IMG/VR virus record: IMGVR_UViG_3300033388_002676
Location: 1 to 20,086 of that record
Direction: 5' to 3' (one strand)
Origin: a virus
DNA length: 20,086 bases
Below are positions 3,579 through 19,002 of this stretch, piece by piece. The notes under the pieces are model-generated. The model worked only from the letters and a program-made list of their open reading frames with translations. It did not search any database and was not told the DNA's origin. Numbering within the stretch: the stretch's first letter is position 1; every line of letters starts with the position of its first letter. The translations under genes were made by a program, and so were the position numbers.

Positions 3579-4496
3579 TTAGCCTCGAGCGACGTACATC
3601 CACAAGAGGGCTTCGGGTTTCAGAACCTTGTAGCCGTAAACGTTCAGGCCACGGACCAAGGTGCCAAAGGTGGACTCAGCTCGCAAGCTTTCCATTTTGG
3701 TCATCTGTGAGGCCCAGCTGATCCCGGCTTTATGACCGGCGATACAATTATAAGTGGTATAATTGCCGTCAGTCTCCTGGGTCAGAAGATTCGAAATATA
3801 AATGGTCAGTCGATCGATCATTCCGATCCGGCCGTTCCGCATGATACTCGTGCCGTCGCCGGCCAGGGAAGCGTCCTTAAGATCGGACTTTTTGATCATG
3901 GCCGCAAACCAAGGCGGGATGACTGCGTACCGAGACTCCTCGGGGAGATTCTGCTCGTCCATGACGGTGCCACAGTCGACCAGGAAGTCCAAGACGGAAG
4001 CCTTGGTGATGATTGCCGGAGTCGCGCTGACACCAAGATTGATGTCGCCGGACTTTACGCCAGCGGTGGCGCCGTGATTGCCGGTTGCAGCATCGGAGAA
4101 AACGTCACCGAGAAACTCTTCGTCGACGGTGATCTTCATTTGCTGAGCGGCGTCGCGGGACCAGCTGTCCATCAGGGCCACATCGGTCTGGTGCTTATCG
4201 ATGTCGTCACAGATGAAGTTGAAATATTTGGCCTTGTCGATCGGCATGTCCTTTTTGGGACTGTCGGGACGTTGGATCTGCAGGGACTGATTTTTGACAT
4301 AATCACGGATGACGATGTCAGGAACGGTGCGGACCTGGACTTTGTCGCCAACGTCCTTGATCTCGCCTTCGTAGTCAGTGTTGCAAATGGCTGCGGAAAC
4401 GGTGGCAGCATAGAATTTGACGAGCAGCTTCCCACTCCATATTTCAGGAATAAAGTTACCACTGTATTGGGGGGTACCCGGAGCTACAGCTATCAT
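3579..4496 (-). CDS. Major capsid protein, HK97-fold
   Basis: This 305-residue protein starts at ATG 4496 with AGGAGG seven bases upstream. The C-terminal third carries the pattern of podovirus and siphovirus coat proteins: an AGHKAGISWASQMTKMES segment (about residues 252-269), then a TFGTLVRGLNVYGYKVLKP segment and a final hydrophobic strand. The N-terminal part has IPEIWSGKLLVKFYAATV, the usual N-arm to E-loop entry of these coats. It forms the icosahedral shell around the scaffold. The scaffold-like gene lies directly upstream and a probable decoration gene directly downstream, the classic capsid cassette order. No protease-type prodomain is seen. Its ribosome-binding site is inside a perfect hairpin (4499-4541), suggesting translational control. 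Confidence 0.88.
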   Translation of the reverse strand: MIAVAPGTPQYSGNFIPEIWSGKLLVKFYAATVSAAICNTDYEGEIKDVGDKVQVRTVPDIVIRDYVKNQSLQIQRPDSPKKDMPIDKAKYFNFICDDIDKHQTDVALMDSWSRDAAQQMKITVDEEFLGDVFSDAATGNHGATAGVKSGDINLGVSATPAIITKASVLDFLVDCGTVMDEQNLPEESRYAVIPPWFAAMIKKSDLKDASLAGDGTSIMRNGRIGMIDRLTIYISNLLTQETDGNYTTYNCIAGHKAGISWASQMTKMESLRAESTFGTLVRGLNVYGYKVLKPEALLWMYVARG

Positions 4497-4548: not shown

Positions 4549-5577
4549 TTATGCCTTTTGTTGCCTCCTGAGTTCTTTTTGATAATCGGAATAGATCTTG
4601 TCGTATTCCGCCTCTGTTATTCGGCCCTGGATATGATCCTGCTGGGCTTTGCTAATGTCTGCAGCGGTGAGTCTCACCTGGTTTTCACCTAAGTTCGGCT
4701 CTCCTCCGCCCCCTCCTACCGGTATATCGTCTACAAACGAAGTTGACTTCGTCTGAACAATGCCGGCAACCTCAATGTATTGATTAAAAATACTTGAGAC
4801 CTGATCGCCCCGGAGCTCCTGTGCGGCTACCTGTAAATGAGACATACGAGGCACGCCACTAATGGGATCTACAACGTTTAACCAGGAGATGAATTTGGGA
4901 TCTTTATTGATTGCTCGCCAGTCACCCTTGATTGTGCTATCCAAGGCCTGTGTGTAGCGATCCGCCCTCGTCTTGCCCATTTCTTGTTCAATGGAATCAA
5001 CACGTTGAGACACATCTCCGTCCTGAGCTCCGCCTTTCGGTCCTGCGGTTTTCAGTCCGTTAATGATCTCTGACTGGTCCCGGATAATTGCATTCAGCCG
5101 ATTAACCGTGATAGCCATGTCCTTCATCTCTTTTCCCCATCCTTCGAAGTCTTCCGGATCCAGGTCACCTACTTTCGAATCAGCATCGGTGGCGCTGTTG
5201 GGAACTGATTGTTTCGAGTTTAAGTCCTCGATAATTTTTGCCTGGCGTTCGAATGATAACTGCAGTTCAGCCATCTGTCCTCGGACATCACCAATTTCCT
5301 TGTCATACTTTCCCTGAAGGACTTTGTACTTGTGTTCCCACTGGGATCCTTGGTCGTTGGTGTCGATGATCGCGGCCGGTACTGTTTCGGGCGGATCAGT
5401 CGGGGCTACTGCTGCGGCTTCTGCGGCGATCTCTGCTTCGGTCTTGTTGACCACGACAACCTCTTGAACTGGATTGTCTTCTGGCTTCGCTTTTATCTGC
5501 TCTACCAGTTTTTCCGCCGCTCTTTCCTGCTTCCGCACTGCACTTGGAACATTCGATAAGTCTTCGTCTTTTGCCAT
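4549..5577 (-). CDS. Capsid scaffolding protein (putative)
   Basis: I chose the ATG at 5577 (MAKDEDLSN, 342 residues) because AGGAGG lies seven bases upstream; an in-frame ATG at 5610 lacks such a site. The protein is highly charged and low in Cys. An Ala/Glu/Pro-rich N-terminal region leads to a heptad-like, probably coiled-coil stretch (around KYKVLQGKYDKEIGDVRG and the following 40 residues). The C-terminus is short and basic (DYQKELRRQQKA), as in scaffolds that dock on coat protein with a basic helix. It sits immediately upstream of the major capsid gene. A scaffold would nucleate procapsid assembly and then leave or be degraded. No protease motif was seen, so a fused maturation protease is unlikely. 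Confidence 0.72.
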   Translation of the reverse strand: MAKDEDLSNVPSAVRKQERAAEKLVEQIKAKPEDNPVQEVVVVNKTEAEIAAEAAAVAPTDPPETVPAAIIDTNDQGSQWEHKYKVLQGKYDKEIGDVRGQMAELQLSFERQAKIIEDLNSKQSVPNSATDADSKVGDLDPEDFEGWGKEMKDMAITVNRLNAIIRDQSEIINGLKTAGPKGGAQDGDVSQRVDSIEQEMGKTRADRYTQALDSTIKGDWRAINKDPKFISWLNVVDPISGVPRMSHLQVAAQELRGDQVSSIFNQYIEVAGIVQTKSTSFVDDIPVGGGGGEPNLGENQVRLTAADISKAQQDHIQGRITEAEYDKIYSDYQKELRRQQKA

Positions 5578-5766
5578 GGTGTTTCCTCCTGAGCCCTTTC
5601 GGGTATTCATTATGAAGTATCGAGTCCGGCATCTGCTCGGGTATTCGATATCCCCTCGGATACATTAAGCGTGGTATAAATAGCTCTTTTAATTATACAT
5701 AGTGTCTATATAAAAAAAACAGAATAAATGCCCCCAGGCCCAATAGATCCTAACTACCTTTAATTA
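5578..5766 (-). promoter_or_regulatory. 189-base intergenic region ahead of scaffold, with T8 tract and TATAAT
   Basis: On the minus strand, eight T (5719-5712) are followed 14 bases later by TATAAT (5697-5692), then about 115 bases of leader before the scaffold start. The T-run is preceded by ATTCTG, similar to the ATTCT before the T-runs of the two clear terminators, but no convincing stem is present (the sequence before it is G-rich with few complementary C). It may be a weak terminator followed by a promoter for the scaffold-capsid transcript. No consensus -35 lies at 16-18 bases. Confidence 0.35.
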
Positions 5767-8201: not shown

Positions 8202-8402
8202 TTAAGCTATCTTACCACCACTGTCTCCGCTCCACGTCAGAGGATCTCCAACAGGGTTACAGTTGCAATGGCATTCTGATTTATCGCACTTGCAGACCTT
8301 CCTGGTATCGATTTCTCTCGAAAGCTTCGCTCGTCCCTTGTCATGCTTGAACATATCATATTCCATGCTCTCGCAACACTTCGCCATTTTGCTATTATCC
8401 AT
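8202..8402 (-). CDS. MDKSK-array protein 4: Cys-rich mini-protein
   Basis: A 66-residue product starts at ATG 8402 behind GGAGG, which is inside the stop region of the preceding array gene. It opens MDNSKMAK, a degenerate form of the MDKSK[L/I]P start shared by the three genes upstream. Unlike them it has seven Cys: CC at residues 9-10, then a dense cluster near residues 37-48 with CKC and CHCNC spacing, which suggests metal binding or disulfides. It is the last member of the tandem array. Function is unknown. The relationship to the others is a judgement from five N-terminal residues and position; it could be unrelated. Confidence 0.7.
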   Translation of the reverse strand: MDNSKMAKCCESMEYDMFKHDKGRAKLSREIDTRKVCKCDKSECHCNCNPVGDPLTWSGDSGGKIA

Positions 8403-8404
8403 GA

Positions 8405-8590
8405 TTAATCCTCCGTTAATTTTTTATTAAGAGCGTCCATTTTTTCCTTACGAGTCTTGATACGATCTACAACATTATCGCCTGCAGACCCGGGCGCCGT
8501 CTTCTTGGGTTTCTTTTTCTCTCCACCCAACCATGGAATTGGAAAAGGAATAGATTTCCTTGTCATTTCAGGTAATTTCGATTTGTCCAT
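8405..8590 (-). CDS. MDKSK-array protein 3: basic mini-protein
   Basis: A 61-residue product starts at ATG 8590 behind AGGGG. It begins MDKSKLPEMTRKS, near-identical to array member 2 over its first seven residues. A Pro-rich stretch (FPIPWLGG), a Lys/Pro-rich segment and a charged helix (DRIKTRKEKMDALNKKL) follow. The isoelectric point would be high. It ends two bases before the next array gene. No known domain was recognised. The conserved start with a variable remainder suggests a shared targeting or binding tag. Confidence 0.8.
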   Translation of the reverse strand: MDKSKLPEMTRKSIPFPIPWLGGEKKKPKKTAPGSAGDNVVDRIKTRKEKMDALNKKLTED

Positions 8591-8597
8591 TATACAC

Positions 8598-8685
8598 CCC
8601 TACTTAGTCACTCGGTTGCGTTAAACATGCGCTTACTTGGTCCCTACTTAACCACCGGCTGCCTCTTTGAGCCTTCGGTTGCGTT
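8598..8685 (-). repeat. Decayed tandem duplication between array genes 2 and 3
   Basis: Two short repeats occur in the same order twice: TCGGTTGCGTT at 8612-8622 and 8675-8685, and CCCTACTTA at 8598-8606 and 8642-8650 (plus strand). One set is the 3' end of array gene 2; the other is in the 57-base gap before array gene 3. This looks like the remains of a tandem duplication with deletion of the material between, consistent with the array growing by duplication. Confidence 0.6.
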
Positions 8686-8800
8686 CTGCCACGGTATCCA
8701 ATACACCCTGGACTCCGCCGGCCTTCTTTTTCTTTTTCTTTTTGCCCCATGAAAAGATAGAAGACTTCTTGCTCATCGGGGGTAATTTTGATTTGTCCAT
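8648..8800 (-). CDS. MDKSK-array protein 2: 50-residue basic mini-protein
   Basis: The ATG at 8800 (AAAGGA upstream) gives a 50-residue product ending at TAA 8650-8648. It begins MDKSKLPPMSKKSS, followed by an aromatic FSWG and a run of seven Lys, then a Gly-containing hinge and a helix (VLDTVAERNRRLKEAAGG). It starts one base after the stop of array gene 1. The Lys run, coded by mixed AAA and AAG, may bind nucleic acid or be a flexible charged linker. No family was recognised. Conservation of the start across the array, with different synonymous codons, indicates selection on the peptide. Confidence 0.8.
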   Translation of the reverse strand: MDKSKLPPMSKKSSIFSWGKKKKKKKAGGVQGVLDTVAERNRRLKEAAGG

Positions 8801-8801
8801 T

Positions 8802-9002
8802 TTAAAATCCTTTCTTTACTCTCATTGTATCCAAGGTCTTCCAGGATTTGATATATCTCTTGCTTGGAAGTGGCAATATCGCCCGATCAGGATTTCTTGT
8901 GATAGTGCCGGCACGTTCTTTCATCCTGCTGTTCTCGTGCTTAGGGCTCCACGGAGTCTCGCTCGATTTCTTGGTTATGTTTGGTATCTTGGACTTATCC
9001 AT
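8802..9002 (-). CDS. MDKSK-array protein 1: basic mini-protein
   Basis: A 66-residue product starts at ATG 9002 behind AAGGAG. It begins MDKSKIPNITKKSSETPW, the same pattern as members 2 and 3 (MDKSK, Leu or Ile, Pro, then Met or Ile, Thr or Ser, Lys or Arg, Lys, Ser). The remainder is basic, with Lys, Arg and Pro throughout, and has no Cys or hydrophobic segment. It is the first gene of the array and follows the SPRY-domain gene by 25 bases. No known function; by position it may be a minor virion or assembly component. Confidence 0.78.
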   Translation of the reverse strand: MDKSKIPNITKKSSETPWSPKHENSRMKERAGTITRNPDRAILPLPSKRYIKSWKTLDTMRVKKGF

Positions 9003-10335: not shown

Positions 10336-12477
10336 TTACATCTGAGCCATCTGTTCGAGTGGTACAGCCGGAGGAGCTCCGCCGATTGGATCGTCTTCGG
10401 GTCTTCCACCTACCGGTTTCTCCGGCTTCTTCTTTGACTGGCCGCCGCCGGCTGGTTTCGGGCCTGCTTGTTCTTGCTCCGGACCCATGGGCTGCTGTTG
10501 GGCTGCTGCCTGTAGCTGCCATTCAGGTGGGACAATCTCCTCACCGTCCATCTTAAGGGATTTGACTGTCTCGCGTAGGACTTTCGATCTGCCTTCCATG
10601 CCGATAATCGCAAGGTCAACAGGGTTGTTCGTGTAGTTCAAGAATTCTTGTCGTCTGGCCTGCAGCTGCTCCGCTATGATGAGATATTCACTGGCTCTTG
10701 CCACGATATGGATATCTCCGGTATAGTCCATCTTGCCGCTCTCAATGGCGTACAGCCATGTTTGATAGACCACCTTTTTAATGACGTCGATGTCGATGTA
10801 TCCGATAGCATCCTTCATGATCTTACTCGATGCATTCATGAGCATTGCCAGACCATGAGCAGTCTTACCTGCTCCGCCGGCTTGATCACCGACACCCTGT
10901 TCAAAAGCGGGTACTCCCAGCTGTTCCCCGGCTTGTGCATAGAAAAATGTGAATATTTCCATCAGCTGATTTCCGAGCATCTGGGGCTGGAAGAAGTTTA
11001 CTGCTGGTTTGCCGTTTGCATTCGGATCACTTTCTGTCTTCCAGATCTTCCAAGGCCACATACGACTGACATCGGTCGACGGCTGGACTCTATCCTCGAA
11101 TACTTCAACCTGGGGACCGGAGGCAATGGCCATATTATTGGACAATGCCCGGGCTGCAGCGTTGCACATGCGCTGACAATCTTCCATCAGCTCTGTCGGT
11201 GCGAGTCCCCATATAGAATCGACGGACGGATCGAATGATGCACTGTAATAAGGTTTCCATCCGAGCGGGTGCTTGTTGACTTTCAGCATGATTACCCTGC
11301 CATGGACCCACATGCACTGGACAGAGACATGATCTGATATATCGCCTTCATATTTGATACCCCATTCCGCGAGGTATCTACCTGGAATCTCACCATTAAA
11401 TAAAAGAACCTCGATCATGGACGTCGGATCAGTCATCTCCTGCGGTCTATTCTCAATATTAGCTCTCTCTTGGTCTGTCCATAACCAGTTGGTTAAATAC
11501 CCCTTTTGATGGTCAAGCATGGTTGCGTCGATAGCCACCTTGCTGTATCCATCGGTGTCGCGGAATTTGGATAGATCTGCAGGTCGAACACGCATGCGCT
11601 CGACCATGTATCCATCATTGATGTTCTTGGCGGCCGGCGCCGGATACATATCGAAAGGTGAGACCCTGGCAAACTTCAGGACTTTCTTCATGCCCTGCTT
11701 GGCCACACTCTTTCCATCCGGACCCTCGACCCACTCGAGCTGCTTCTCGGTGACGACGAATGGACCACGAAGGAATGCGGTCAGATATACTGAAAAATCC
11801 TTAATGAATTTAGCAAGTTCCGAATAGAAGTTACCCTCAACGAATAGATCCTCGACGTGCTGTTCTGCGAGGAAGCATTCATTGCCGGCTATCTTCTTGA
11901 TCTCGGCCCGGGCAGTCGACATGAGCTCCATCATCCGGATATCTACCATCTCGGGAGTGATAGGAACATTGGGTCCAAGTACCGCAAATATCTGACCTAA
12001 TTCAGCTTTCAGGTTCTCGACGACACGGTCGGCTACTTCCCGGGGAAGATCCGGAATAGGTGTTGGATCGATACCCCACGGTTTCTCGCCGGCAGGTATA
12101 AGGATGTCCTTGATCTGGGCCTCGATGCTCCTGGTCTTGACATTGGTCAGCATCATATAGATCTCAGACCCCCCGAACTCCCGGATCGCGCTTAGATCAT
12201 CCGGGTCATATTTGCCTTTCTTGGCTCGTATGCATTTCGCCAGGCGTTCATCGATCACCCACTTGGCATCCTTGGCTGCTTCCCAGAGGGTGTTAAGGTG
12301 AGCAGTCAAGCCTATGATCTCCGGCTGGTTCTGCTGCTTAGCATCCTCGTTCATCTTCTTATCTATCTGTTTTAATTCTTTATTCCCCACCATCCGTAAT
12401 AGGCCATTGCCTTCAGGGATAGCTGTGATGGGTGCGGCCGGCTGGTTTGGACTGTCTTGACCAATCAATTCTGCCAT
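10336..12477 (-). CDS. Portal protein
   Basis: This encodes 713 residues from ATG 12477 behind GGAG. It has the size and layout of podoviral portal proteins. A helical N-terminal region leads to the FARVSPFDMYPAPAAKNINDG segment (about residues 269-289), the recognisable wing/stem boundary pattern (V-SPFD-YP). A later element, GLAPTELMEDCQRMCNAAARALSNNMA, matches the long conserved helix of this family. The last 70 residues are rich in Gln, Pro and Gly and probably disordered. Portals form the dodecameric ring at one capsid vertex through which terminase pumps DNA. It overlaps the preceding zinc-ribbon-like gene by 13 bases. The terminase gene is unusually far away, about 5 kb upstream. Confidence 0.85.
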   Translation of the reverse strand: MAELIGQDSPNQPAAPITAIPEGNGLLRMVGNKELKQIDKKMNEDAKQQNQPEIIGLTAHLNTLWEAAKDAKWVIDERLAKCIRAKKGKYDPDDLSAIREFGGSEIYMMLTNVKTRSIEAQIKDILIPAGEKPWGIDPTPIPDLPREVADRVVENLKAELGQIFAVLGPNVPITPEMVDIRMMELMSTARAEIKKIAGNECFLAEQHVEDLFVEGNFYSELAKFIKDFSVYLTAFLRGPFVVTEKQLEWVEGPDGKSVAKQGMKKVLKFARVSPFDMYPAPAAKNINDGYMVERMRVRPADLSKFRDTDGYSKVAIDATMLDHQKGYLTNWLWTDQERANIENRPQEMTDPTSMIEVLLFNGEIPGRYLAEWGIKYEGDISDHVSVQCMWVHGRVIMLKVNKHPLGWKPYYSASFDPSVDSIWGLAPTELMEDCQRMCNAAARALSNNMAIASGPQVEVFEDRVQPSTDVSRMWPWKIWKTESDPNANGKPAVNFFQPQMLGNQLMEIFTFFYAQAGEQLGVPAFEQGVGDQAGGAGKTAHGLAMLMNASSKIMKDAIGYIDIDVIKKVVYQTWLYAIESGKMDYTGDIHIVARASEYLIIAEQLQARRQEFLNYTNNPVDLAIIGMEGRSKVLRETVKSLKMDGEEIVPPEWQLQAAAQQQPMGPEQEQAGPKPAGGGQSKKKPEKPVGGRPEDDPIGGAPPAVPLEQMAQM

Positions 12478-14485: not shown

Positions 14486-14639
14486 ATTTGATCCCTTTAA
14501 TTGTACCATGACCGTTTATCAGCTTGTCCCTCAAGATAGCATTGTAGATCTTGTGCTCGTCCTCGGTCAGGGTGGCAATGACCGCTGCCCTTGCTGCTTT
14601 CAGGGCTGCTATTTTTGCCATCAGGATTAATTTATTCAT
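14478..14639 (-). CDS. 53-residue helical hypothetical protein
   Basis: The ATG at 14639 overlaps the stop of the 103-residue gene (GATGAATAA) and the frame ends at TAG 14480-14478, eight bases inside the next gene. The first 24 residues form an Ala/Lys-rich helix (MAKIAALKAARAAVIATL), followed by a charged EDEHKIYNAILRDKLI helix. It has no Cys. It fills a gap of about 145 bases that would otherwise be unexplained. The ribosome-binding site is weak, so translation probably depends on coupling. Confidence 0.55.
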   Translation of the reverse strand: MNKLILMAKIAALKAARAAVIATLTEDEHKIYNAILRDKLINGHGTIKGIKYG

Positions 14640-15858: not shown

Positions 15859-16500
15859 TTAGAAGGTTATATAATCGGTTGCCAGGTTGTGCTTGTAAGC
15901 CTCTTCAGCTGTGATATATCTGCTATCTTTTACCCATTCAGGTGGGATGGAGGTACGCTCCCTAAGTAGCTGATACATAAGATCATTAAAGCCTCTCGTT
16001 GCTTGGGCTCCTGCGGGAGATATTTGTTCAAGCCTTACCATCTCAGACAGTGTGAATTGCTTACCTAATGCACCCTCGAACCAGACCTCGTGGATCATGA
16101 TCACTCCGAGGTTGCCAACAATGCGCTCATGTCCAATCAGGAATATTAGGCCGGCACCGCTCAATGCTTTAGTATAGGTATAGGTCCGGATTTTGAGATT
16201 GTGTAGCATAGACCATCGATTAAGTATATGCATCATGGTCTGGGCCACATCAGCACTGCCACCATCGGAGTCTATGATGATATTGAGCATGGCGCCATTC
16301 TGCAGCATCCATTTAGAGTTGACCAGACCCAGCTCCCTGGTTAGTCTGGCTGCATCCCCTGCCCATAATGTCCCATCAATGGTAATGGTTGATCGTCCAT
16401 CGGATAGGATTGTGGCAGCCTTAGAGCTCTTTACAACCACCGACAAGAAAATCGTAAGCAAGATAACAATGATAGCGGTAATTATTTTTTCTTTCCACAT
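15859..16500 (-). CDS. Membrane-anchored or exported ClpP-like serine protease
   Basis: I use ATG 16500 (213 residues; GGAGG ten bases upstream); ATG 16521 would add seven residues. Residues 7-23 form a transmembrane segment or signal peptide, ending SSKAA, a possible signal peptidase site. After it comes a ClpP/crotonase-type core. IIDSDGGSAD (about residues 75-84) matches the conserved strand-turn. Candidate catalytic residues are Ser114 in KALSGAGLIFLIG, His137 in VIMIHEVW and Asp192 in VKDSRYITAEEAYKHNL, with spacing close to ClpP (Ser, about 25 to His, about 50 to Asp). It is not beside the capsid gene, so prohead maturation is unlikely. An extracytoplasmic role, for example in lysis or superinfection control, is inferred. 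Confidence 0.7.
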   Translation of the reverse strand: MWKEKIITAIIVILLTIFLSVVVKSSKAATILSDGRSTITIDGTLWAGDAARLTRELGLVNSKWMLQNGAMLNIIIDSDGGSADVAQTMMHILNRWSMLHNLKIRTYTYTKALSGAGLIFLIGHERIVGNLGVIMIHEVWFEGALGKQFTLSEMVRLEQISPAGAQATRGFNDLMYQLLRERTSIPPEWVKDSRYITAEEAYKHNLATDYITF

Positions 16501-16543
16501 GATGTCAAAACCTCCACTCATATTTAAATCAGCCTACATTATA

Positions 16544-16916: not shown

Positions 16917-17003
16917 TTAGAGATTACCAAATCTTATCAACATTAGAGTTGCTCCAATCCATGCAACAAACCATAAAGCTAATATAGCCAAGATAATTCT
17001 CAT
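16917..17003 (-). CDS. 28-residue single-span membrane peptide
   Basis: The ATG at 17003 overlaps the stop of the M15 peptidase gene (TAATG) and the frame ends at TAA 16919-16917. The peptide starts MRIILAILALWFVAWIGATL and is almost entirely one transmembrane helix with a charged residue near each end. The coupled start, full hydrophobic span and position directly after an endolysin candidate suggest a mini-holin or other lysis accessory. Its ribosome-binding site (GGGTG) is weak. The gene is very short, so it could also be a chance frame. Confidence 0.5.
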   Translation of the reverse strand: MRIILAILALWFVAWIGATLMLIRFGNL

Positions 17004-17383
17004 TAGTACACCCACATAACCTTTGGAGTCTTGTGCATGTCATCATCAGCATGGATAAAGTCTTTCCGGATCCCTATCCGCTTTATGCCGGCCTTCTTCA
17101 GGGCCTCGACTATGATCCATCGCAGGTTGTCACTGGTACATGAGATATCCACAGCTACACCGAGAGGGTGCGATGATGTCTGACTCGCTCCTATGTTGCT
17201 GTTATGATTATAACATCTGTACCCTGAGTTGATGATGAACGGAGTCTTGGCTGTCCCCCGGGCAATCTCAAGCTTCTGTATGAAATGATGATACATTTTT
17301 GATTGACCGCAACACTTGCACGCGAACTCTTTCTCCCTGAAATACCTGAATTCACTATGAATTCTTTTTTGATCATTACCCAT
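17003..17383 (-). CDS. M15-family peptidase, probable endolysin
   Basis: I place the start at ATG 17383 (126 residues; AAAGGG upstream); ATG 17410, overlapping the terminase stop, would add nine residues. The protein has the M15 D,D-carboxypeptidase pattern: an EFACKCCG element near residue 19, SGYRCYNHNSNIG near residues 53-65, SSHPLGVAVDI with zinc ligands His72 and Asp79, and a final FIHADDD with His111. It would cleave peptidoglycan peptide bonds during lysis. No signal peptide is present, so export would require a holin-type pore; small membrane proteins lie nearby. It directly follows the terminase gene. A virion-associated role is a less likely alternative. Confidence 0.8.
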   Translation of the reverse strand: MGNDQKRIHSEFRYFREKEFACKCCGQSKMYHHFIQKLEIARGTAKTPFIINSGYRCYNHNSNIGASQTSSHPLGVAVDISCTSDNLRWIIVEALKKAGIKRIGIRKDFIHADDDMHKTPKVMWVY

Positions 17384-17409
17384 TGTATTACCCTTTCGAT
17401 ATTCACTCA

Positions 17410-19002
17410 TTATGCACCCCATCCTTTGTCAGGTGGAGCCCCTGAAGGCTTAGCGATCAGGATGCTCCCCTTCTTGTTGAAGTTCGTTTTAGTGAACGGA
17501 TGGACAACGGACCCAGTCCTGAAGGCGTCCGCTCCATTCGATGATACATCATGATAAGGATGATTGCGGTATGTTCCTCGCTTCTCGTCCCACTCTTTTC
17601 TGTATGCTTCCAGGTGTTTAAGGCCTGTGTCGCACTTCTCGAGGTCGAATACACAGTATGGAAGCAGCTTCCTGACTGCCTCTATGCCTGACTCGATCGA
17701 CAGCTTAGGTACAGTTTTTGTGATTAAACCCAGGTCTTTAGCGTAATCCGAGCGCTTCCGACCTATTGAATAGTCGTGATTGTCCATATCATGGGGAACG
17801 TAATGCTTCCCATATTTGTAATCAAGATCATCTTGCATATCTCGAAGTATTTCAGCATAATGGCCCAACCCTTCGTTGAAGTTCTCATAGTAGTTGATGA
17901 CATGGATCTGCAGCCCAATGGTCTGGACGAACCATATCGCGTTGATATCATTGAATCCTATATCCCACCAGGTGTCAACCCTATAGTTAGGAATGAAGTC
18001 TACCTTGGTGATTCTGTTATTCTTACGCAACCAGGCCATCGGCGTTGCATAGTATACACCCTTTGTTGATTCCAGGAAAGCTTCTTCTGGGGTGCTGGGG
18101 TGCTCACGCATCATCAGATCACCCTGATCCTTTTCCTTCATGACATACCAGGCCTGCTTTACCATGGGTATCGGCCGGCGGAGGACATCCTCGACCTTCT
18201 TGAAGTAGCGCTTCAATCTATCTGAAATGACTACGAATTTGGCCTCTTTCTCCTCGAGCTCATTGAGAGGGTTGTCCATCCACCCAAAGAAAAAGAACTT
18301 CCAGGCCATCTTATTGAGCATGGACCTTTCGAGCTGCAGCTTCTGGGCCTCGATCGTCATGTCATAGAAACGCCCCTGACGGCCCTCAGCGGTACTTTCA
18401 ATGAATACCAGTTGACCAGGATGGACAGCGTTCAATGTACCTGTCACGATCTCCTCAGCCTTGTGGGGATACTTTGCGCAGATCTTCCCGAACTCAGAAA
18501 CGTGGACCAGCTGATATGTACCTGATCGGCCCGAGGTTGTCACCCTGATGGAGGATCCGTTCGAGAAGTGGAGCTCCGAGGTTGAGGCACGCTTAGCGGT
18601 GACCGTTCCCCGGATCAATGGATGGAGGTTATTGTAGGCGAACATGATCTTCTTAGTGAAGAAGTCCTTGGCATCATCCTTATTATGAGCAATGACGCAT
18701 GCATGAGTGTTCGAATTAAACATGCAGGTATCCAGGAAAAACAAACAAATAAAGGTAGTTATCCCATGCTGCCTTGATTTCAGAATTATGTTCAAATAAT
18801 GCATCCCCAGGTACAAAAGCCTCTGGGCCATGCGCATCTTGAACGTCATCACATGACCCTTATCATCAACTATCTGATATAGATGATTAATCCGCCATCG
18901 CTGACGTTTCATCTTCTTGATCACCCGGGCATACCAGGTGCGTTCATCATCAGATGTCTGGAAGTCTTCATTAATCTCGAGGTTGTCATCGTATTCAGAC
19001 AT
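17410..19002 (-). CDS. Terminase large subunit
   Basis: This encodes 530 residues from ATG 19002, overlapping the exonuclease stop (TAATG) with AGGGTG upstream. The ATPase half has a Walker A-like LKSRQHGITT at residues 74-83 (the K-x-RQ-x-G-x-T variant), Walker B LVHVSEFG around residues 165-172 with Glu170, and a coupling motif ESTAEGRQG near 202-210. The nuclease half has the acidic residues of the RNase H-fold: Asp347 in WWDIGF, Asp405 in PHDMDN and Asp492 in SNGADAFR. It cuts and pumps concatemeric DNA into the prohead through the portal. No small terminase subunit was identified in the window. The domain order and motifs make this a secure call. Confidence 0.92.
   Translation of the reverse strand: MSEYDDNLEINEDFQTSDDERTWYARVIKKMKRQRWRINHLYQIVDDKGHVMTFKMRMAQRLLYLGMHYLNIILKSRQHGITTFICLFFLDTCMFNSNTHACVIAHNKDDAKDFFTKKIMFAYNNLHPLIRGTVTAKRASTSELHFSNGSSIRVTTSGRSGTYQLVHVSEFGKICAKYPHKAEEIVTGTLNAVHPGQLVFIESTAEGRQGRFYDMTIEAQKLQLERSMLNKMAWKFFFFGWMDNPLNELEEKEAKFVVISDRLKRYFKKVEDVLRRPIPMVKQAWYVMKEKDQGDLMMREHPSTPEEAFLESTKGVYYATPMAWLRKNNRITKVDFIPNYRVDTWWDIGFNDINAIWFVQTIGLQIHVINYYENFNEGLGHYAEILRDMQDDLDYKYGKHYVPHDMDNHDYSIGRKRSDYAKDLGLITKTVPKLSIESGIEAVRKLLPYCVFDLEKCDTGLKHLEAYRKEWDEKRGTYRNHPYHDVSSNGADAFRTGSVVHPFTKTNFNKKGSILIAKPSGAPPDKGWGA

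Follow-up and report, generated by a model that had tools for sequence, protein, structure and literature searches.

A clade-matched N-terminal peptide on small genes between portal and scaffold in an SU10-type phage head module

Why should four neighbouring small genes of a virus begin alike and then continue so differently? We addressed this question in a 20,086-base IMG/VR record of an uncultured short-tailed phage, referred to here as the window, whose main genes lie on the minus strand in the order terminase region, portal, two larger accessory genes, a four-ORF array, a gene of ~96 aa, scaffold and capsid (Table 1). The array consists of four small minus-strand ORFs running from 9002 to 8202 between the portal and scaffold genes, with a spacing of 1-57 bases, and a purine-rich stretch resembling a ribosome-binding site precedes each of them. 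An initial annotation had described four consecutive ORFs of 50-66 codons with their own ribosome-binding sites, a shared start written in differing codons, a run of seven lysines in one body and seven cysteines in another, and all of these features were present as described.

Table 1. Coordinates of the array, its landmarks and the body D fusions
Feature	Sequence	Coordinates	Strand	Description
Gene 1	Window	8802..9002	-	66 aa, pI 10.6; tag MDKSKIPNITKKS and body B
Gene 2	Window	8648..8800	-	50 aa, pI 10.7; tag MDKSKLPPMSKKS and body A with seven Lys
Gene 3	Window	8405..8590	-	61 aa, pI 9.9; tag MDKSKLPEMTRKS and body A
Gene 4	Window	8202..8402	-	66 aa, pI 7.6; start MDNSKMAKCCESM, half tag MDNSKMA and Cys-rich body C
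Tag-encoding stretch of gene 1	Window	8964..9002	-	Codons 1-13
Tag-encoding stretch of gene 2	Window	8762..8800	-	Codons 1-13
Tag-encoding stretch of gene 3	Window	8552..8590	-	Codons 1-13
Portal gene	Window	10336..12477	-	SU10-type (Pfam/PHROG); upstream landmark
Scaffold gene	Window	4549..5610	-	Downstream landmark; named by its place before the capsid gene and conservation with annotated neighbours
Major capsid protein gene	Window	3579..4496	-	Landmark for finding relatives
Body D fusions	L137, L139, L121	L137:964-3267, L139:2888-5698, L121:1964-5296		

The genes around the array make up an SU10-type head module, in which an SU10-family portal is followed by scaffold and capsid genes. Relatives of the window capsid protein lie where Rhizobium phage RHph_TM3_14A has a gene annotated 'major capsid protein'. 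The four array proteins have no convincing match to a Pfam or PHROG model (best E 0.07-0.1, under the cut-offs), and neither do their relatives, in line with the initial view that they belong to no described family. Elsewhere in the window, well upstream of the portal, a ClpP-like protein with a hydrophobic N-terminus (15859-16521, minus strand) has weak similarity to PHROG head maturation proteases (E 4.5e-8). In addition, a Peptidase M15 domain protein, possibly an endolysin, adjoins the terminase gene (17003-17422, minus strand).

The first three array genes start with MDKSK[LI]P..[MI][TS][KR]KS, which we call the tag. These starts have 8-9 identities in the 12 residues after the methionine, compared with 4 of 12 for the next best pair among the 35 proteins of the window, and of 2,000 shuffles two gave a best pair with 7 identities and none gave more; the sharing exceeds chance. 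The common start that had been claimed for four genes is found in full on genes 1-3, whereas gene 4 carries its first half only (MD[KN]SK), having just MDNSK in common with the others. Within a genome, a residue that is the same in two tags is written with the identical codon in 33% of cases, as predicted from codon usage (39%), which argues that the peptide and not the DNA is constrained, as originally proposed. Across the tags of the window clade, third positions are 30% identical versus 60% for first and second positions, and the 30 bases upstream of the tagged genes are 37% identical. Taken together, the codon and third-position data indicate that these tags were not recently copied as DNA and that the peptide has been kept. 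The same figures weigh against a DNA-level effect such as gene conversion, recombination hot spots or shared translation-start signals, an explanation that we consider extremely improbable, and for the window clade the codon data lead us to reject gene conversion. What favours such an effect comes from L125, a relative described below, whose tags use the same codon at 13 of 23 identical residues; this is above expectation, and duplication therefore contributes there.

We searched IMG/VR for relatives, which gave 17 loci with the portal and 80 with the capsid protein, and scored a profile of the tag at every start codon of all loci. Tagged genes score at least 21 and other starts at most 11.3, with the exception of the Cys-rich gene of L002, a true member that scores 10.1. 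Tagged genes are present in the window and in five other IMG/VR contigs (L002/L021, L003/L022, L004/L023, L020 and L024), and in all six genomes they lie between portal and scaffold, so the expected recurrence of the start in further genomes was confirmed, at the same locus. The idea that the tag might also stand on other virion genes did not hold: every MD[KN]SK-type match in the five related contigs is inside the array, and across all of IMG/VR a strict DNA pattern of the tag matches the window clade only. A search of cellular genomes with the strict tag gave one match in GTDB (L107), a GTG within a longer open frame, which we judged to be chance.

A relaxed form of the start, M[AS]?DxS, is found in the wider group on 21 of 108 small post-portal ORFs and on 5 of 917 other ORFs (P ~2e-17), and on 9 of 96 small post-portal ORFs when the core clade is left out (P ~6e-7); these P-values are descriptive, because the form of the motif was picked after the sequences had been viewed. 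In the wider-clade relative L041, the relaxed start MDPST precedes a DUF6496 domain (PF20106) in the same interval, a domain not found in the four genes of the window. Starts of the still looser form MD[x]S also occur in wider-clade contigs; one of those followed up is a 23-codon frame with no clear support. We found no report of such a tag in podoviruses in the openly licensed literature.

In L002 (6644-8382) and L003 (16171-17916), the interval between array and scaffold holds genes with a likeness, judged by eye, to a glycosyltransferase and a sulfotransferase. LAGLIDADG-like ORFs, again recognised by eye, lie between the scaffold and capsid genes of L024 and near or within the capsid gene of L014, L015 and L005, which suggests that homing elements flank or interrupt the capsid gene in several relatives. 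The 103,145-base contig behind L026 (G007) has pattern matches at 14561, 33351, 34838 and 91972; it appears to hold two related portal regions, one G006-like and one L026-like, and may join two phage genomes.

Behind the tag, the bodies fall into recurring types. Body A, the commonest, is made up of a Lys-rich linker, then (A/P)G[SAG], then a basic C-terminal segment, and is carried by genes 2 and 3 and by L002, L003, L004 and L024. Genes 2 and 3 are paralogues over their full length (phmmer E ~5e-4) and therefore do not represent two independent bodies; the closest relative of gene 2 is in L024 (E 7.7e-9), and the sole confident element in the structure model of gene 3 is a C-terminal helix at residues 40-60. 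Body B is carried by gene 1, L002 and L020 and, under another tag, by L031 and L125. The Cys-rich body C with its half tag is found in gene 4 and five relatives, that is, in six of six clade genomes. Tagged body D occurs in L004 and L125 and is absent from the window; its structure model has high confidence over the body and low confidence over the tag region. When members with different bodies (A, B and D) are compared, identity is 70% over residues 2-13 and falls to 8% over residues 14-40 (ungapped). The divergence of the bodies noted at the outset is real in that several of them are unrelated, but they are less diverse than claimed because they are members of recurring families. A search for further arrays with body B gave just two loci, both already known, and tblastn of bodies A, B and C against named phages gave no credible match.

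Compared with their L020 orthologues, genes 1 and 4 have dN/dS values of ~0.07 and ~0.14, as expected of real genes and pointing to purifying selection on bodies B and C, while their dN between window and L020 is 7-9 times that of the capsid protein. Close relatives differ in array content, and L020, whose capsid protein is 96% identical to that of the window, goes from B to C with no A gene in between. Small size, such fast evolution and variable content typify counter-defence genes, and would suit proteins that act in the host cytoplasm during infection, for instance against host defences, their common start binding some host or phage factor that has nothing to do with the head. However, the genes lie inside the head-gene operon, a search of the coding strand within the array gave no promoter-like site, and the tag is restricted to the portal-scaffold interval, so that we regard a cytoplasmic role as decidedly unlikely.

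Body D is a widespread phage domain without a name, which we found in 39 loci. It stands untagged directly after the portal in L008/L009/L011, and in Ayaqvirus S45C18 it again lacks the tag and lies between genes annotated as capsid-assembly and capsid; in L069/L137 and the near-identical L146 it extends the C-terminus of the portal. Other fusion partners are an endolysin-like protein and a large protein with matches of the transglycosylase/LysM type (Table 1), and since it is present in endolysin-like and other large proteins it is not portal-specific. The fold of body D is modelled confidently, yet the PDB gave no significant match; its viral matches are uncharacterised proteins, and a tree of the domain gave no resolution on independent recruitment by two clades. 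These occurrences bear on plain paralogy, according to which an ancestral basic head-assembly factor of type A, encoded after the portal, was duplicated; its N-terminus would be the part active in assembly, the remainder of the protein having drifted or been replaced, and no cargo would be delivered. The full-length paralogy of genes 2 and 3 and the frequency of type A favour this explanation, as does a duplicated junction in L125 (below). On the other hand, body D is untagged in many phages and unrelated to A or B, and the tag must therefore have been joined to a separate domain and not only inherited; overall, we find it rather unlikely that paralogy accounts for the array.

L125 represents a second clade, which shares the portal type, and carries an array of its own immediately after the portal. 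The tag of this clade is MD[TP]S[KT]IxDx[IV]AxxK and is carried on bodies B and D, with the starts MDTSKIQDEIAVTKS and MDTSTIADDVAVKKS on body B and MDPSTITDSIASKKF on body D, while the type A gene of L125 starts with MADNSNPIKETPKS, clearly unlike the other three. Mean start alignment scores within a clade are 45.5 for different bodies and 46.4 for the same body, against 17.9 (same body) and 13.6 (different body) between clades, in a small sample in which one four-gene array and L031 represent the second clade. Because bodies B and D of L125 bear another, clade-specific tag, the tag goes with the phage clade and not with the body, and clade-matched similarity of this kind would be expected from a tag that co-evolves with some partner in its own phage. 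The B-D junction GAGAGGGAATATTGATGGACCCTTCAA is present twice in L125 (3583-3611 and 3949-3977), the first copy being followed by a 23-aa remnant only, and this is a trace of cassette duplication and loss.

The tag is kept at the peptide level, stands on several bodies, is limited to small portal-scaffold genes and goes with the phage clade. Among the functions first suggested for it, targeting or packaging agrees with two observations, the location of the tagged genes between portal and scaffold and the fusion of a body to the portal in another phage. From these, together with its modularity and clade-matching, we infer with roughly even confidence that the tag is a docking peptide bringing small accessory proteins to the assembling head. 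The enrichment of relaxed starts after the portal, the low-confidence tag region in the body D model and the changing array content between close relatives speak for the same reading, whereas the presence of body D in proteins other than the portal, the small second-clade sample with its excess of shared codons and the divergent start of the L125 type A gene weigh against it. The tag would be a short unstructured N-terminal peptide through which small accessory proteins, mostly basic ones, are recruited to the portal, the scaffold or the inner capsid surface. The recruited proteins would then enter the procapsid and probably the virion, with the bodies as interchangeable cargo behind the tag, and the basic bodies may contact DNA inside the head. 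A more ambitious version, which we regard as somewhat unlikely, is a clade-specific cargo-loading code of short-tailed phages in which a lineage address peptide co-evolves with a head receptor and swapped bodies deliver effectors with the genome. Alternatively, the tag could imitate the N-terminus of the phage's own scaffold, EDLSNVPSAVRKQ, and use its binding site. The tag profile ranks this N-terminus 5th of 6,307 sequence windows in the DNA studied here and 2nd of 2,554 in L020, but 8th-21st in other clade members; the stretch picked in the second clade is another than the scaffold motif, and the resemblance was first spotted by eye, making mimicry of the scaffold very improbable.

To our knowledge, phage heads offer few described examples of natural peptide signals for protein loading, the classic case being that of T4. 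The T4 capsid targeting sequence (CTS) is an N-terminal peptide of 10-19 residues on IPI, IPII and IPIII, which are small basic internal proteins with divergent bodies (PMC9026906). The array likewise has a short conserved N-terminal peptide on several small proteins with divergent bodies that are encoded among head genes, in a putative cargo set that varies between relatives. Three of its four proteins are basic (pI 9.9-10.7), and the Cys-rich one is not (pI 7.6). In contrast to the array tag, which is known from sequence alone, the T4 peptide has been shown to package proteins and is cleaved by gp21; the phage type and gene position also differ, and no sequence likeness was seen. We therefore propose by analogy that the tag may work like the T4 CTS, while not classing it as a CTS and claiming no common ancestry. 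Encapsulin cargo-loading peptides, which are usually C-terminal and non-viral, are short peptides that direct different cargo proteins into an HK97-fold shell; they resemble the array by description, in placing a short peptide on different cargo.

Kuravirus SU10 and phages of its portal family share with the window the same Pfam/PHROG portal family and a gene between portal and scaffold (gp6, gp7 and gp8), but a tagged array has not been described there. The ejection proteins of SU10 are gp20-24 (PMC9509320). SU10 gp7, likened to the array genes by position alone, is absent from the proteins detected by proteomics in SU10 preparations, which counts against the docking reading (PMC4281155).

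If the docking reading is correct, a tag this compact, modular and clade-matched would make it possible to test directly what guides accessory proteins to the portal or scaffold in short-tailed phages. It would also mark small virion or ejected proteins, which are often dropped by gene callers.
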